Assembly (NCBI RefSeq): GCF_040892545.1
Contig: NZ_CP156079.1
Coordinates: forward strand, 868,001 to 932,000
DNA: 64,000 bases
Direction of reading: 5' to 3'
Source of the DNA: Paracidovorax avenae
GTDB lineage: Bacteria; Pseudomonadota; Gammaproteobacteria; Burkholderiales; Burkholderiaceae_C
Position numbers and translations under genes: made by a program. Shown here in pieces: positions 6,353-64,000 of the stretch. Within the stretch, counting starts at the first letter, position 1. The number at the start of each line of letters is the position of its first letter. A model generated the notes under the pieces. That model did no database searches and had not been told where the DNA came from. It saw only the letters and a list, made by a program, of their open reading frames with translations.

Positions 6353-7498
<1,146 letters not shown>

Positions 7499-7927: not shown

Positions 7928-9342
7928 CCGGCGCGCTCCGCCAGGGCGCCCAGCAGCCGGGCGTGGATGCCGCCGAAGCTGCCGTTGCTCATGCACACGA
8001 CATGGTCGCCCGGCCGTGCCGCCGCGGTGATCCGTTCCACCAGGGTGGCGATGTCGCCCGCCGTGCAGGCCCTGCTCCCCAGCGGGGCGAGCGCCTCGGC
8101 TGCATCCCAGTCCAGCCCCGCCGTGTGGCAGAAGGCGAGGTCGGCGGCTTCCAGCGCCCAGGGCAGCTGCGACTTCATCGTGCCGAGCTTCATGGTATTG
8201 CTGCGCGGCTCGAAGGCCGCGAGGATGCGCGCATGCGGCCCGACACGGCGGCGCAGGCCGTCCAGCGTGGTGCGCAGCGCGGTGGGGTGGTGCGCGAAAT
8301 CGTCGTACACCGAGACGCCGCCGGCCGTGCCGCGCAGTTCCATGCGCCGCTTGACGTTGCGGAACCGTCCCAGCGCCGCCGCGGCCTCGGAGGGCGCCAC
8401 GCCCACATGGTCCGCGGCCGCGATGGCCGCCAGTGCGTTGAGCTGGTTGTGCACGCCGCTCAGCTCCCACTCCACGCGGCCGACGGCATGGCCGCCGCGC
8501 AGCACGTCGAAGGCCTGCGGCTCGCCGCGCGCCGTGAAATCGCTCACCGCCGCACCGAAACTGGCCATGCCGCTCCAGCAGCCCTGGTGCAGCACCCGTG
8601 CCAGGCTTTCCTCCAGCCCGTTGAACACCACCCGGCCCGAAGGCGGCACCGTGCGAACGAGGTGGTGGAACTGCCGCTCGATCGCGGCCAGGTCGTCGAA
8701 GATGTCCGCGTGGTCGAACTCGAGGTTGTTCAGCACCGCGGTGCGCGGGCGGTAGTGGACGAACTTGCTGCGCTTGTCGAAGAAGGCCGTGTCGTATTCG
8801 TCGGCCTCGATCACGAACAGCGGCGCGCCGCCGGCCGGGCCGTCCTGCGCCACCGGCCGCTGCGCCGCGCCCAGCCGGGCGGAGACACCGAAATCCAGTG
8901 GAACGCCGCCCACCAGGAAGCCGGGCTGCAGGCCCGCGCATTCGAGGATCCAGGCGAGCATGGACGTGGTCGTGGTCTTGCCGTGCGTGCCCGCCACCGC
9001 GAGCACATGGCGCCCCTGCAGCACATGCTCGGCCAGCCACTGCGGGCCGCTCGTGTAGGGGGTTCCCGCGTCGAGGATGGCTTCCATCAGCGGGAACTTG
9101 GGACTGCCGTCGGGAAGCCGCGCGCGGCTCACCACGTTGCCCACCACGAACATGTCCGGTGCCAGGTCCAGCTGTTCGGCGCCGTAGCCTTCGATCAGTT
9201 CGATGCCCAGCGCGCGCAACTGGTCGCTCATCGGTGGATACACCCCGGCATCGCAGCCCGTGACCTTGTGGCCCGCCTCCCGCGCCAGCGCGGCCAGGCC
9301 TCCCATGAACGTTCCGCAAATGCCCAGAATGTGAATATGCAT
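7921..9342 (-). CDS. mpl: UDP-N-acetylmuramate:L-alanyl-gamma-D-glutamyl-meso-diaminopimelate ligase
   Basis: A 473-residue Mur-ligase family protein that attaches recycled murein tripeptide to UDP-MurNAc. It begins with the Rossmann-like MHIHILGICGTFMGGLAALA (the ICGTFMGG form is typical of Mpl rather than MurC), has the ATP-binding AVAGTHGKTTTTSML, the DEYDTAFFDKRSKFVHY block and YDDFAHHPTA in the C-terminal domain. The start chosen is the Met of this motif; the frame upstream is not conserved in character. With ampD at 21.9 kb it indicates an active peptidoglycan recycling route. Confidence 0.95.
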   Translation of the reverse strand: MHIHILGICGTFMGGLAALAREAGHKVTGCDAGVYPPMSDQLRALGIELIEGYGAEQLDLAPDMFVVGNVVSRARLPDGSPKFPLMEAILDAGTPYTSGPQWLAEHVLQGRHVLAVAGTHGKTTTTSMLAWILECAGLQPGFLVGGVPLDFGVSARLGAAQRPVAQDGPAGGAPLFVIEADEYDTAFFDKRSKFVHYRPRTAVLNNLEFDHADIFDDLAAIERQFHHLVRTVPPSGRVVFNGLEESLARVLHQGCWSGMASFGAAVSDFTARGEPQAFDVLRGGHAVGRVEWELSGVHNQLNALAAIAAADHVGVAPSEAAAALGRFRNVKRRMELRGTAGGVSVYDDFAHHPTALRTTLDGLRRRVGPHARILAAFEPRSNTMKLGTMKSQLPWALEAADLAFCHTAGLDWDAAEALAPLGSRACTAGDIATLVERITAAARPGDHVVCMSNGSFGGIHARLLGALAERAGQ

Positions 9343-22511: not shown

Positions 22512-24002
22512 TCAGGAGGCTGCATGGTCGTCGGGCGCGTCGTCGTCCTGCGGCGTGGCGATGGCCAGGCGGTCGATGCGGTAGCGGATCTGCCGCAGGC
22601 TGATGCCCAGGCGGGCGGCGGTGGCCGTGCGGTTGAACCCGTGCTCGCGCAGGGCGCGCACCAGGATCTCGCGCTCCTGCTGGTCGAGCCAGCCCTGCAG
22701 GTCGCTGGGCAGAGGCACGTGGGCTGCGGGGAGAGGGTCCGCGGTGCCGGCAGGCGTGCCGGGGGCCTCGGGCGCCGGGGCTGAGGCCGCGGGTGCGCGC
22801 GGCGTGCCGGCAGCGGCGTCCGCGGGGCATTCGATGTGGAGTTCGCCGCCGTCGCTCAGCGCCACGGCGCGGTGCAGCAGGTTCTCCAGTTCGCGCACGT
22901 TGCCGGTGAGCGGGTGCCGGGCGATGTCCGCCAGGGCCTCGCCGGTCAGCGGAGGCGCGGGCAGGCCGGTCTCCGCGGCGATGCGGTCGAGCAGCGCGGC
23001 GCACAGGGCGGGAAGGTCCTCGCGGCGCTCGCGCAGCGGCGGGATCACGACCTCGATCACGTTGAGGCGGTAGTAGAGATCCTGCCGGAAGCGGCCCGCC
23101 TGCACGTCGGCGGCGAGATCGCGGTGGGTGGCGCTGACGATCCGCACGTCCACGGTGTCCTCCTGGGTGGACCCCAGGGGGCGCACGCTGCGCTCCTGGA
23201 TGGCGCGCAGCAGCTTGGCCTGCATGGACAGGGGCAGGTCGCCGATCTCGTCGAGGAACAGCGTGCCCCCGCGGGCGGCCTGGAAGTAGCCGTCCCGGTC
23301 CTGGCTGGCGCCGGTGTAGGAGCCCTTGCGCGCGCCGAAGAATTCCGCCTCCAGCAGGTTCTCGGGGATGGCGCCGCAGTTCACGGCCACCAGCGGGCCG
23401 TCGGCGCGCTGGCTGCAGCCGTGCAGGGCACGGGCGACGAGTTCCTTGCCGGTGCCCGATTCGCCGCGGATCAGCACGGGAGCCATGCTGCGCGCGACCT
23501 TGGCGATGCGCTGCTTGACGTTGCGCATGGCCTCCGAGTCGCCCACGAGCGGATCGAGCCCGGACAGGCTGGCGGCCGTGGAGGCTCCCGGCGGGCCGGG
23601 CCGCGCGGAGCGGGGCGGCGGCACGCCGCCCGTGCCCTGCACGGCCGAGGCGACCACGGAGCGGAACTGCTTGAGGTCCACCGGCTTGGTGAGGTAGTCG
23701 AACGCGCCGGAGCGCAGTGCCTCGACGGCGTTCTCCGCCGAGCCGTAGGCGGTCATCACCACGCAGCGCTCGCGCCGCTTCTGCTGGCGGATCTCCTGCA
23801 GCAGTTCCATGCCGAAGCCGTCCGGCAGGCGCATGTCGGTGATGACGGCGTCGAACCGCCGGGTCTGGAGCTGCCGGCGCGCCTCCTCGACGGTCGCCGC
23901 CGTCTCCACGCGGTAGCCCTCGCGCAGCAGCGTGAGTTCGTAGAGCGTGCGCAGGTCGGGCTCGTCATCGACGACCAGGATGGTGGCGGCGGGGGCATTC
24001 AT
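22512..24002 (-). CDS. pilR: Sigma-54-dependent response regulator PilR
   Basis: A 496-residue NtrC-type protein. The receiver domain has phosphoacceptor Asp56 (VITDMRLPDGFG). The AAA+ domain has Walker A GESGTGKE, Walker B GGTLFLDEIGD and the sigma-54 contact loop as GSYTGA instead of GAFTGA, and a C-terminal helix-turn-helix (NRTATAARLGISLRQIRYRIDRL) follows a long Ala/Pro linker. Pairing with the adjacent multi-membrane-helix kinase and the conserved order with ampD identify it as PilR, which activates pilin genes in relatives. No pilA lies in this window. The pilS stop is 20 bases upstream. Confidence 0.9.
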   Translation of the reverse strand: MNAPAATILVVDDEPDLRTLYELTLLREGYRVETAATVEEARRQLQTRRFDAVITDMRLPDGFGMELLQEIRQQKRRERCVVMTAYGSAENAVEALRSGAFDYLTKPVDLKQFRSVVASAVQGTGGVPPPRSARPGPPGASTAASLSGLDPLVGDSEAMRNVKQRIAKVARSMAPVLIRGESGTGKELVARALHGCSQRADGPLVAVNCGAIPENLLEAEFFGARKGSYTGASQDRDGYFQAARGGTLFLDEIGDLPLSMQAKLLRAIQERSVRPLGSTQEDTVDVRIVSATHRDLAADVQAGRFRQDLYYRLNVIEVVIPPLRERREDLPALCAALLDRIAAETGLPAPPLTGEALADIARHPLTGNVRELENLLHRAVALSDGGELHIECPADAAAGTPRAPAASAPAPEAPGTPAGTADPLPAAHVPLPSDLQGWLDQQEREILVRALREHGFNRTATAARLGISLRQIRYRIDRLAIATPQDDDAPDDHAAS

Positions 24003-30758: not shown

Positions 30759-32174
<1,416 letters not shown>

Positions 32175-60518: not shown

Positions 60519-61655
60519 TCAGGCCTCCGCCGCCTCCAGTGCGGGCTGCGTGCGCGGCTGCGATGCCTCCGCGGCCTGGCGTGCTTCCAGCTCGCGCACC
60601 AGCGGCAGCACCTTGCGGCCGAAGTACTCCACCTCTTCGATGAAGTGCAGGAAACCGGTCAGCACCAGGTCCACGCCGATGGCCTTGAGCGCGACGATGC
60701 GCTCGGCGATCTGCTGCGGCGTGCCGATCAGGTTGGTGCGGAAGCCGTCGTTGTATTGCACGAGGTCCTCGAAGGTGGACTTCGCCCAGTTGCCTTCGCC
60801 TTCCGGCGAGGCGCGGCCGGCCTGCTTCACGGCATCCCCGAAGGCATGCACCGCTTCCACGTGCGCATGGCGGATGATGTCCTGCAGCACGGCCTGCGCC
60901 TCTTCCTCGGTATCGCGGGCGATCACGAAGGCGTTGACCCCGATGCGCACGGTGTGGCCGTTGACGCGGGCCTTGGCCTGGATGTCGTCGATCTGGGCCT
61001 TGAGCCCCTCGGGCGTGTTGCCGTTGGTGAAGTACCAGTCGGACACGCTGGCCGCGTTGTCGCGCGCGGCGCGCGAGCTGCCGCCCTGGAAGATCTCCGG
61101 ATGGGGCTTCTGCAGCGGCTTGGGACTGAGCGTGTAGTCGTTGAAGCGGTAGAAGTCGCCCTTGAAGGTGAAGTGGTCCTGCGTCCAGATGCCCTTGAGC
61201 GCGCGGATGAATTCGTTGGAGCGGCGGTAGCGCTCGTCGTGCTCCAGCCACGGCTCGCCGATGGCCTGGAACTCGCCCTTGAACCAGCCGCTCACCACGT
61301 TGATGCCGATGCGGCCGCCCGAGATGTGGTCGATGGTGGCGATCTGCTTGGCCACCACCGCGGGGTTCCACGGCCCCGGCAGGATGGCCGCCAGCACCTT
61401 CAGCCGCGTGGTCGCGTGCAGCAGCGCCTGGCTGAACGACACGGACTCGTGCTGGTGCTCCGCCCCGTAGCCTGCCGTGAAACGGATCTGGCTCAGGGCA
61501 TATTCGAAGCCGGCCTTTTCCGCCGCCACCGCCAGCCGCTGGTTGTATTCCAGGCTCCAGTCGGTGCGCTGCTCGATGGTGCTCACGACCAGGCCGCCGC
61601 TGACGTTCGGCACCCAGTAGGCGAATTTGACGGGTTCGTTGCGGGATGTGCTCAT
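60519..61655 (-). CDS. sfnG: FMNH2-dependent dimethyl sulfone monooxygenase SfnG
   Basis: A 378-residue luciferase-like (LLM) flavin monooxygenase. VKFAYWVPNVSGGLVVSTIEQRTDWSLEYN, FEYALSQIRFTAGYGAEHQHESVSFSQALLHAT, LPGPWNPAVVAKQIATIDHISGGRIGINVVSGWFKGEFQAIGEPWLEHDERY and IFQGGSSRAARDNAA match SfnG closely as I remember it. SfnG cleaves dimethyl sulfone to methanesulfinate with FMNH2 from a separate reductase; that reductase is the next gene upstream. SsuD-type alkanesulfonate activity cannot be fully excluded. Confidence 0.9.
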   Translation of the reverse strand: MSTSRNEPVKFAYWVPNVSGGLVVSTIEQRTDWSLEYNQRLAVAAEKAGFEYALSQIRFTAGYGAEHQHESVSFSQALLHATTRLKVLAAILPGPWNPAVVAKQIATIDHISGGRIGINVVSGWFKGEFQAIGEPWLEHDERYRRSNEFIRALKGIWTQDHFTFKGDFYRFNDYTLSPKPLQKPHPEIFQGGSSRAARDNAASVSDWYFTNGNTPEGLKAQIDDIQAKARVNGHTVRIGVNAFVIARDTEEEAQAVLQDIIRHAHVEAVHAFGDAVKQAGRASPEGEGNWAKSTFEDLVQYNDGFRTNLIGTPQQIAERIVALKAIGVDLVLTGFLHFIEEVEYFGRKVLPLVRELEARQAAEASQPRTQPALEAAEA

Positions 61656-61727: not shown

Positions 61728-62312
61728 TCAGGCCACGGCGGCCAGCGCGGGGCGCACGGGCGTGGAGGCTTCCCGCCCTGCGCGCAGCAGCGGCAGGGCG
61801 CGTTCCACGGCCAGGTCGGCGCGTGCCAGCAGGGCCGGGTCGGTGATGCGGTAGTCGGTGAAATCCTTGTCGGTGCCGTACACGCCCAGGGGCAGGGTGC
61901 GGGCCTGGAAGAAGCTGAACAGCGGGCGCAACTGGTGGTCGATCACCAGGGCGTGGCGCTCGCTGCCGCCCGTGGCGGCCAGCAGCACCGGCACATCCAC
62001 CAGGGCCTCGTGGTGCACGAAATCGAAGAAGTGCTTGAACAGGCCGGAGTACGTGGCCCGGTACACCGGGCTGCCCACCACGAGCACGTCCGCCTGTTCG
62101 ACGGCGGCGATGTCGGCCTCCACCTCGGGCGGCAGCTGGTTGCGGTAGAGGGCGCCCGCCAGGCGGGGGCCGACGGCGCCGAGTTCGATGGTGCGCACGC
62201 GGACCGGGACGGCGTCGCCGATCCTCTCGACGAGGTGTTCAACGAGCGCGAGGGTGCGCGAGGGGCGCTGGAGGCTGCCGGAGACGGCGACGAGATTCAG
62301 GGTTCGGGCCAT
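61728..62312 (-). CDS. msuE: NADPH-dependent FMN reductase, MsuE/SsuE type
   Basis: A 194-residue flavodoxin-like reductase. LNLVAVSGSLQRPSRTLALVEHL at the start, ALYRNQLPPEVEADIAAVEQADVLVVGSPVYRATYSGLFKHFFDFV and HALVIDHQLRPLFSFFQARTLPLGVYGTDKDFTDY in the core are typical of reductases that feed FMNH2 to sulfonate or sulfone monooxygenases. A frame extension upstream of the chosen Met is not coding. A sigma-54-type promoter lies about 60 bases before the ATG on the minus strand. Confidence 0.88.
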   Translation of the reverse strand: MARTLNLVAVSGSLQRPSRTLALVEHLVERIGDAVPVRVRTIELGAVGPRLAGALYRNQLPPEVEADIAAVEQADVLVVGSPVYRATYSGLFKHFFDFVHHEALVDVPVLLAATGGSERHALVIDHQLRPLFSFFQARTLPLGVYGTDKDFTDYRITDPALLARADLAVERALPLLRAGREASTPVRPALAAVA

Positions 62313-62372
62313 GGTGATCCATTCGTTGCGATGAAGGGGGCGGCACCGCGGCGCGGTGTCCGTCCTGTCTTC

Positions 62373-62388
62373 AGCAGCTTGCGTGCCA
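62373..62388 (-). promoter_or_regulatory. Sigma-54 (-24/-12) promoter for the msuE-sfnG-liv operon
   Basis: On the minus strand TGGCACGCAAGCTGCT keeps the invariant GG and GC separated by exactly 10 bases and matches TGGCACG-N4-TTGCT at all but one base. Start of transcription would be about 50 bases before the msuE ATG. Confidence 0.8.
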
Positions 62389-62442
62389 GAGATTTTTCCC
62401 TTTGGAATCAATGGCTTGCGAATCCGCTGTCACGCAACGGGT

Positions 62443-62488
62443 GTGTGCTGCACAGCACGCTGCTGTCGCGTTGCTGCAGGATCAGCAG
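62443..62488 (-). promoter_or_regulatory. Putative activator binding sites (UAS) upstream of the msuE promoter
   Basis: Inverted repeats TTGCTGCAGGATCAGCAG (62471-62488) and GTGCTGCACAGCAC (62445-62458). The first shares TGCTGC-N3-ATCAGCA with a site in the other intergenic gap of the cluster (63810-63827). They lie roughly 55-100 bases upstream of the sigma-54 element, a normal enhancer distance. Confidence 0.6.
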
Positions 62489-62494
62489 TCCACC

Positions 62495-62522
62495 GGGAAA
62501 CGTGCATGCATATGCGTTTCCC
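62495..62522. repeat. Inverted repeat after the DszC-like gene
   Basis: GGGAAACG and CGTTTCCC flank the 12-base centre TGCATGCATATG, 11 bases beyond the minus-strand gene stop. There is no T-run, so it may be an operator or part of the enhancer region rather than a terminator. Confidence 0.7.
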
Positions 62523-62533
62523 GCAGCAGCGGA

Positions 62534-63718
62534 TCACGAATAGAAGGAGGGCTCGGGCCGCTGCCCGTGCAGGGCCCACCGGCCCAGTTCGCGGCGCTTG
62601 TAGTCCACCGGGTCGTGCAGCGTGTGTACCCGCAGGTTGCGCCAGAAGCGGTCCATGCGCAGGGCGGCCGTGGTGGCGCGCGGGCCGGTCACCTCGAACA
62701 GCCGGTGCGCCACATCGAGCGCGGCGCGGCCCGCGGCCACCTTGGCGGCCGCCACGGCCACGGCCACGTCGCCGCGCGCCTGGGGCGGGAGCGCCAGCCC
62801 TTCGGACCAGGCTGCGTCGAACAGCGCGGCCGCGCGGTCCGCCAGCAGGCGCGCACCTTCGAGGGCCAGCCAGAAGTCGCCGTAATGGCCCAGCAGGTAC
62901 GGGTCTTCGCCCGCCTGGTCCACGCCGGAGGCATGCCATGGGCGCGCATGCTGCAGCGTGAAGCCGCGCGCCTCGGCCAGCGCGCCTTCGCCCAGCCCCA
63001 GGTACACGTGGGCCAGCACCAGCTGGGCGAGCAGCGGGCGCAGCGCCGCGAAGGGGGAGGACAGGGGACCCGGGTCGGTGAGCAGCTCATGCGCCTGCAC
63101 GCGCACCTGGTCGAAGACCACGCTGCCGCTGTCCGTCTGGCGCTGGCCGATGTTGTCCCAGTCGCCCTGCACCTGGATCCCTTCCCGGGTGGTCGGCACC
63201 ACGGCGATCAGCATCCGGCCCGTGGGGTCGAATGCGGAGGCGAGCAGCATGTCGGAATCGCCCGCGCCCGAGCAGAAGCTCTTGCGGCCATGGAACGACC
63301 ATGATCCGTCCGGTTGCTGCGTGGCCACGGTGCCCCGGTCCAGCGGGTTGAGCGCATTGCCCCAGAACCATTGCCGCGCCACGGTGGATTCGAGCCAGGG
63401 CTGCCACTGCGCCGGCCGGCCGAAGAGCTGCGCCGTGGCCAGCAGCAGGTGGTGGAAGCCGAACACGTGGGCGACCGCGCTGTCCACGCGCGCGAAGTGG
63501 CGCACCACGCCCAGTACATCGCTCCAGGAGGCCCCCGCGCCACCCAGGGCGGCGGGAACGGAGAGGGCCAGCAGTCCGCTCTCTCGCAGCAGGCGGCGCT
63601 CGTGCAGCGGCACGCCCCCGGCCTGGTCGCGCTCGATGGCCGTGGCGGCCAGGGATTCGGCCATGCGGTCCCGGGCACCGTGCCAGTCCCGGTGCGCTTC
63701 GGCTGCGAAATGCTTCAT
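62534..63718 (-). CDS. DszC/SfnB-type acyl-CoA dehydrogenase-fold flavoprotein monooxygenase
   Basis: A 394-residue flavoprotein. Its segments include DSAVAHVFGFHHLLLATAQLFG, QWFWGNALNPLDRGTVATQQPDGSWSFHGRKSFCSGAGDSDMLLASAF and QGDWDNIGQRQTDSGSVVFDQVRV. The C-terminal part RLFEVTGPRATTAALRMDRFWRNLRVHTLHDPVDYKRRELG matches the dibenzothiophene monooxygenase/SfnB branch rather than beta-oxidation dehydrogenases. It probably uses reduced flavin from the adjacent reductase to oxygenate a sulfur compound. The Met of MKHFAAEAHRDW has AAAGGA eight bases upstream; longer starts are rejected. A sigma-54-type promoter lies 46 bases upstream. Confidence 0.82.
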   Translation of the reverse strand: MKHFAAEAHRDWHGARDRMAESLAATAIERDQAGGVPLHERRLLRESGLLALSVPAALGGAGASWSDVLGVVRHFARVDSAVAHVFGFHHLLLATAQLFGRPAQWQPWLESTVARQWFWGNALNPLDRGTVATQQPDGSWSFHGRKSFCSGAGDSDMLLASAFDPTGRMLIAVVPTTREGIQVQGDWDNIGQRQTDSGSVVFDQVRVQAHELLTDPGPLSSPFAALRPLLAQLVLAHVYLGLGEGALAEARGFTLQHARPWHASGVDQAGEDPYLLGHYGDFWLALEGARLLADRAAALFDAAWSEGLALPPQARGDVAVAVAAAKVAAGRAALDVAHRLFEVTGPRATTAALRMDRFWRNLRVHTLHDPVDYKRRELGRWALHGQRPEPSFYS

Positions 63719-63763
63719 GGTGGGGGTCCTTTCGTGTCCGTGGTGAAGTGGAGCAGCCGGCAT

Positions 63764-63779
63764 CGCAGGGTCCGTGCCA
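63764..63779 (-). promoter_or_regulatory. Sigma-54 (-24/-12) promoter for the DszC-like gene
   Basis: Minus-strand TGGCACGGACCCTGCG has the GG-N10-GC core and a perfect -24 half (TGGCACG); the -12 half is CTGCG against TTGCA/T. It lies 46-61 bases before the ATG. Confidence 0.65.
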
Positions 63780-63800
63780 TCGCCGCCCGGGGGAGGCGGA

Positions 63801-63887
63801 GCGGGGCGGCTGCTGCGCAATCAGCAACCGCCCCGCCGGGCTGCTGCGGCAGTGTCCGCCAGGGCGCAGTTGCTGCTGCAGCCGCAA
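63801..63887 (-). promoter_or_regulatory. Putative activator binding region upstream of the DszC-like gene
   Basis: A nested palindrome at 63801-63836 (GCGGGGCGG...CCGCCCCGC around CTGCTGCGCAATCAGCAA) and a second similar site TTGCTGCTGCAGCCGCAA at 63870-63887. The inner part shares TGCTGC-N3-ATCAGCA with the msuE upstream region. The remaining bases to the window end show no gene. Confidence 0.55.
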
Positions 63888-64000
63888 AACGTCTATCGAT
63901 GCTTGGAATCCTTATTTGCCGCGGGGCGTCCGGATTCCCAGAATTGCTGTCCAGGCAGCAGTTTTCGTCCTTCCCGCACGCGCCGCGGCCTTCCCGGCGG

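Follow-up and report, generated by a model that had tools for sequence, protein, structure and literature searches.

The window analysed here, a 64,000-nucleotide stretch of the Paracidovorax avenae genome, ends within a cluster of organosulfur genes, and the features of this cluster, both inside the window and just beyond its border, are collected in Table 1. The two msuC-like proteins found their best solved relative in the same structure, the methanesulfinate monooxygenase MsuC (6u76), and the NCBIfam models DszC and SfnB matched them below cut-off.

Table 1. Genes, promoter elements and palindromic sites of the organosulfur cluster, numbered from the first base of the window.
Feature	Position	Strand	Remarks
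sfnG, dimethylsulfone monooxygenase	60519-61655	-	TIGR04021 above cut-off, 640 vs 383 bits
msuE, FMN reductase	61728-62312	-	TIGR03566 above cut-off
Putative sigma-54 -24/-12 element of msuE-sfnG, TGGCACGCAAGCTGC	62374-62388	-	exact pattern match; kept in 8/8 genus genomes with SfnR
TGCTG-N2-CAGCA copy	62445-62458		conserved block, spacing wrong for the motif
SfnR-type site 1, TTGCTGCAGGATCAGCAG	62471-62488		perfect YTGCTG-N6-CAGCAR; centre 93 bp upstream of -24 element (msuE-sfnG)
First msuC-like gene, acyl-CoA-dehydrogenase fold family	62534-63718	-	best solved relative 6u76, E 7e-154
Divergent gap, part inside window	63719-64000		
Putative sigma-54 -24/-12 element of first msuC-like gene, TGGCACGGACCCTGC	63765-63779	-	exact pattern match
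SfnR-type site 2, CTGCTGCGCAATCAGCAA	63810-63827		perfect; 41 bp upstream of -24 element (first msuC-like gene)
One-mismatch SfnR-type site, TTGCTGCTGCAGCCGCAA	63870-63887		101 bp upstream of -24 element (first msuC-like gene)
SfnR-type site 3, TTGCTGTCCAGGCAGCAG	63944-63961		perfect; 175 bp upstream of -24 element (first msuC-like gene)
Second msuC-like gene	64035-65258 (past window end)	+	best solved relative 6u76, E 1e-177
sfnR	65264-66385 (past window end; L001 7265-8386)	+	373-aa sigma-54 activator

The first-pass annotation had placed the regulator of the cluster outside the window, possibly just upstream, and had advised inspecting the genes beyond position 64000. An SfnR-like sigma-54 activator is indeed present there, in the 19-kb locus L001 (genome C1:926000-945000), where its gene begins 1.26 kb beyond the window end and five bases after the stop of the divergent msuC homologue. 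The protein carries the sigma-54 AAA+ domain (PF00158, 235 bits) with GAFTGA in the translation and a C-terminal HTH that matches PF02954 exactly at the cut-off (22.0 bits), and no Pfam family matched before residue 48, leaving no recognised N-terminal sensor domain, the lack of such a domain being a property of SfnR. This architecture, with little before the AAA+ domain, resembles that of PspF-type activators, but the protein scores well below the cut-offs of the PspF models (271 versus 443.6 bits) and, unlike PspF, is linked to sulfur genes. Relatives were gathered by a single-sequence scan of genome contigs (best 80 of at least 591 matches), and among the matches listed residues 26-373 share 66% identity with the activator of a Pseudomonas msuE-msuD-msuC-sfnR contig (L032), the values for two Pseudomonas loci being 66% and 64%. 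No SfnR model appeared among the best 25 of 30 NCBIfam matches, each of those 25 lying below its cut-off. Because of its position behind an msuC homologue and its 66% identity to the Pseudomonas protein, we call the activator SfnR; it shows the SfnR features that were tested, and it is predicted to activate sfnG under sulfur starvation. Two other sigma-54 activator domains lie in the window on the minus strand (23049-23549 and 31230-31730).

Each of the two large gaps had been described in the first pass as holding a minus-strand TGGCACG...(C)TGC element with exact GG-N10-GC spacing, and both elements, TGGCACGCAAGCTGC and TGGCACGGACCCTGC, proved to be exact matches to TGGCACG-N4-YTGC, with the positions given for the sites correct within about one base. 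Sigma-54 promoters follow a TGG/GC consensus with GG-N10-GC spacing and TTGC as the -12 part; both elements satisfy the spacing and carry CTGC, one base off. The window contains three exact matches in total, the third of which lies at 8589, away from the organosulfur cluster, and the two within the gaps compare with a mean of 0.003 in 2000 dinucleotide shuffles, none of which reached two. With one mismatch allowed, the window held 10 matches versus 8.4 expected, a chance level that makes the loose pattern alone uninformative; despite this count, chance promoter matches are ruled out for the two gaps by the shuffles and by the conservation described below. The genome has two matches to PF04552, the family of rpoN-type genes, and these separate sigma-54 DNA-binding domains (C1:532273 and C1:3898817) suggest two rpoN genes.

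Upstream of these elements, an inverted repeat TGCTGC-N3-ATCAGCA had been reported as shared by the gaps. It does occur in both, being exact in the whole window only at 62472-62487 and 63811-63826, but it fails as a unit, since its spacer letters already vary inside the genus alignment and its arms are constant, and the best form of the repeat is YTGCTG-N6-CAGCAR. Of the additional looser copies proposed for the gaps, that at 63870-63887 stands as a one-mismatch site, whereas that at 62445-62458 was rejected as a motif copy for its two-base spacer. The third perfect site (site 3) was absent from the first-pass annotation. Not one of 1000 shuffled versions of these gaps contained a perfect copy of the palindrome, and shuffling thus produced neither two exact promoters nor any perfect palindrome, which bears out the claim that the layout of promoters and sites is beyond chance; as the motif was partly defined from these same gaps, the third site and the relatives are fairer tests.

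Across the 5.6-Mb genome we counted 20 perfect palindromes versus 6 matches to a reversed control pattern, with three of the 20 at this locus and 17 not near it. In a by-eye comparison with 20 genome matches to TGGCAYG-N4-YTGCW, a perfect palindrome lay within 250 bp only at C1:930373 (the second promoter is missing from that list because it ends in G), and no further target with both elements perfect was found in this genome. Within the locus, site 1 alone combines a perfect palindrome with the common promoter spacing, site 2 lying as near as 41 bp to the second promoter and site 3 as far as 175 bp from it. Between site 1 and its promoter, a block TGTGTGCTGCACAGCACGCTGCTGT (62440-62466) is largely invariant in seven genomes and off the SfnR-type spacing. 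Further downstream, in the stretch that runs from the expected start site to the start codon of msuE, lies a perfect inverted repeat CACCGCGGCGCGGTG (62344-62358), one copy of which occurs in each of the eight genus loci with this SfnR; its transcript can fold into a hairpin, though 10 of 200 shuffles fold equally well, and it is a possible 5'-UTR element or operator.

Evaluating the genus further, we found that 12 of 17 genomes (our own included) had an activator match with an E-value of 1e-90 or lower, the identities being 89-100% in eight and 55-58% in four. Gaps were aligned for seven of the eight genomes with this SfnR, L154 being left out because both msuC-like genes are missing there and its gaps are fused. 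Of the motif columns, 25 of 27 were invariant in the first gap, where the other columns gave 108 of 194; for the second gap the figures were 36 of 39 and 93 of 277. In the second gap, the GG and GC of the promoter were kept in 7/7 genomes (with TGGCACA in two), and so were the site spacings of 60 and 74 bp, the one-mismatch site lying 60 bp from site 2 in all seven. Upstream of msuE-sfnG, all eight genomes with this SfnR had a promoter (score 12-13 of 13) and a palindrome, which was perfect in seven and had one mismatch in the eighth, at a start-to-start distance of 99-100 bp in 8/8. The single fused gap of L154 (G203, 6955-7314) places the msuE promoter and sites directly beside sfnR.

Presence of the sites coincided with presence of the regulator. 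sfnG occurs in 15 of the 17 genus genomes, and the seven that have it without this SfnR, four of which carry the more distant 55-58% activator, had no palindrome with one mismatch or fewer in the roughly 1.5 kb upstream. The resulting co-occurrence of 8/8 versus 0/7 gives a Fisher p of 1.6e-4, a value that takes no account of the groups possibly representing two clades, in which case the co-occurrence is not fully independent. Promoter-like matches of score 11 were seen inside msuE in 2/7 genomes without this SfnR, with a similar one in an SfnR genome. The first-pass annotation had let its reading stand or fall with conservation in relatives, and these alignments and counts speak in its favour.

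The palindromes and promoters were also enriched outside the genus, where we sampled 18 gaps (8293 bases) from loci L158-L169, L171 and L172, leaving out L170 and the distant activators L173-L188; gap borders here, as in the genus, were set from tblastn ends or by hand, and the relatives were sampled for having this activator. All tests are uncorrected for kinship. Twenty perfect palindromes fell in 12 of these gaps, whereas 500 shuffled sets averaged 0.012 and never held more than 1; sigma-54 elements scoring at least 11 numbered 22, compared with 1.4 in shuffles (maximum 6). Varying the spacer showed the six-base length to be specific, with 20 matches at six bases, 12 at three, 3 at zero and 1 at nine, with no matches at the remaining lengths up to 12 in the 18 gaps; the three-base form was rejected, as each of its 12 matches overlaps a six-base-spacer site within two mismatches. 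Among 26 promoters tabulated for distance (three from the genus and one from an Erwinia contig), 18 had a site with at most one mismatch 81-105 bp upstream, and nine of these had a second site 30-33 bp nearer. In locus L161, where two promoters diverge, sites stand 63 and 94 bp from each of them. There were exceptions too, with 6 of the 18 gaps having no perfect site and three promoters (L167 A, L168 B and L171 B) lacking any site of at most one mismatch over a range of 260 bp. In a survey of 0.7-1.9 kb upstream of sfnR in 102 non-identical SfnR-like loci, a perfect palindrome was present in 19 of 21 loci that lie outside Pseudomonas and reach at least 66.6% identity, versus 4 of the other 81, the two exceptions among the 21 being L159 (palindrome further away) and L170.

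Pseudomonas sfnG revealed a sister version of the site. Upstream of the gene in 31 loci (29 of 59 sampled genomes of the genus of L032, plus L205 and L206), a sigma-54 element of score 12-13 was found in 29, and YTGTTG-N6-CAACAR in 27 (13 perfect and 14 with one mismatch), whereas the TGCTG version was perfect in none and within one mismatch in three. Two msuE-msuD-msuC-sfnR loci, L032 of Pseudomonas and L034 of Cupriavidus, likewise have TGTTG palindromes ahead of their msuE end. At our own locus, YTGTTG-N6-CAACAR had no copy within one mismatch in the 1.9 kb upstream of sfnR and no perfect copy in the 19-kb L001. One genome, G664, carries the promoter together with a TGTTG site of one mismatch, yet gave no SfnR match at the threshold applied.

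This operator difference followed residue 347 of SfnR, within the HTH sequence NQVQ, in 42 oriented loci (L188 dropped as a duplicate). Where the residue is Gln (27 loci), TGCTG was perfect in 23, among them L187 with its palindrome 5 kb away, and TGTTG in none. His, found in eight loci, went with TGCTG in none and TGTTG in two, and the seven loci with Glu or Arg included one with TGCTG, just downstream of the activator gene. The Pseudomonas SfnR proteins listed in the comparison all have His, and in an Erwinia contig, whose activator shows 51% identity, Gln goes together with TGCTG. As other HTH residues differ as well (mostly SRNVTR in Pseudomonas versus SRNILR in this SfnR) and the split runs largely along phylogeny, residue 347 is a marker and a candidate, no proven cause. 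On balance we lean towards SfnR and its operator having changed together by one base per half-site, giving two natural and possibly non-crossreacting versions of a sulfur switch: YTGCTG-N6-CAGCAR with Gln347 in a Burkholderiales clade and the Erwinia locus, and YTGTTG-N6-CAACAR with His347 in a Pseudomonas-type clade that also occurs in Cupriavidus, both in one and the same promoter layout. The one-base-per-half-site difference would be the new element here, unless already published; among the publication titles listed there was none on SfnR sites in Burkholderiales, which is no proof of absence.

Both gaps very probably hold SfnR-dependent sigma-54 promoters of an organosulfur scavenging regulon, a reading built on sequence comparisons. 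The earlier proposal of an SfnR-type enhancer-binding protein controlling the cluster thus gains support from conservation and from the adjacent regulator gene, and from these we infer the regulation itself. Sigma-54 activators assemble on upstream sites, the DNA loops, and ATP hydrolysis opens the promoter. Here, SfnR would presumably be made when preferred sulfur is short, its dimers would bind the YTGCTG-N6-CAGCAR palindromes, and the bound protein would assemble and, by DNA looping, contact sigma-54 RNA polymerase waiting at TGGCACG-N4-CTGC, upon which ATP hydrolysis would open both promoters, that of msuE-sfnG and that of the first msuC-like gene. Because SfnR has no recognised sensor domain, control is probably exerted through the amount of SfnR, which would itself be the signal. 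In P. aeruginosa, one report gives an increase of about 260-fold for sfnG on sulfur starvation (PMC12581299).

How SfnR itself is controlled bears on the role of the divergent gap. Site 3, and perhaps the whole array there, might serve mainly for SfnR feedback, by activation or repression, on msuC-sfnR, besides the promoters in Table 1; we regard this as possible, though tentative. The site is perfect and conserved, and it lies 73 bp before the start of msuC-sfnR, whereas its distance to the identified promoter is 175 bp, a range over which enhancers can still work. L160, L161, L167 and L168 each have sigma-54 elements pointing in both directions within a single gap, and the L161 sites stand at equal distances from each of its two promoters; an element facing msuC-sfnR in these four loci and in L171 suggests SfnR self-activation there. 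In our genus, however, no msuC-sfnR promoter was recognised: 7 of 8 gaps had no correctly spaced sigma-54 element of score 10 or more facing the operon, the single score-10 match (L152) overlaps an SfnR-like site, and sigma-70 scans of both gaps were empty. A conserved stretch CTATCGAT...GGAATCC (63895-63920) beside the one-mismatch site is a candidate location for the msuC-sfnR promoter.

Two further readings would take the sites or the promoters away from SfnR altogether. The palindromes could bind another regulator, either a sigma-54 activator, the genome having 11 strong PF00158 matches, or a LysR-type protein such as CysB, with this SfnR acting elsewhere; binding by SfnR is predicted, and the title of Endoh 2003 calls SfnR CysB-regulated in P. 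putida, which would put CysB upstream of SfnR. The palindrome nevertheless tracks this SfnR clade both inside the genus and across the surveyed loci, and the form it takes goes with one residue of the SfnR HTH, which makes another regulator quite improbable. The -24/-12 elements, for their part, could be unused look-alikes, with the genes read from sigma-70 promoters, the transcription starts being predicted ones; the conservation of the elements at fixed spacing to the palindrome and the empty sigma-70 scans leave this highly improbable.

SfnR-dependent control of both gaps would make the system a variant of one known from Pseudomonas, where SfnR/sigma-54 control of sfnFG and of the msuEDC-sfnR operon has been reported (Endoh 2003, 2005; Habe 2007; Lundgren 2019; PMC8234197). 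Both systems have sfnG, msuE and msuC homologues, an SfnR-like activator behind msuC, and a sigma-54 element preceded by an 18-bp palindrome, most often at a distance of about 90-115 bp. It is a variant because its half-sites are TGCTG, whereas those at Pseudomonas sfnG are of the TGTTG type. The SfnR circuit would thereby be extended to a group of Burkholderiales, with YTGCTG-N6-CAGCAR as a concrete motif by which SfnR regulons can be mapped in that group, and it may offer a compact natural example of joint change in a regulator and its DNA site; its reach is modest, namely the supply of bacteria with sulfur from dimethylsulfone and similar compounds under sulfate scarcity. The gene order differs from the Pseudomonas msuEDC-sfnR operon as well, in that two msuC-like genes stand head to head here, msuE-sfnG and msuC-sfnR occupy opposite strands, and msuD is not in this gap. 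Such a gene is present in the relatives L155, L156 and L157, which carry an extra luciferase-type monooxygenase gene (msuD-like, about 29% identity to SfnG) that is flanked by the first msuC-like gene on one side and the divergent gap on the other.
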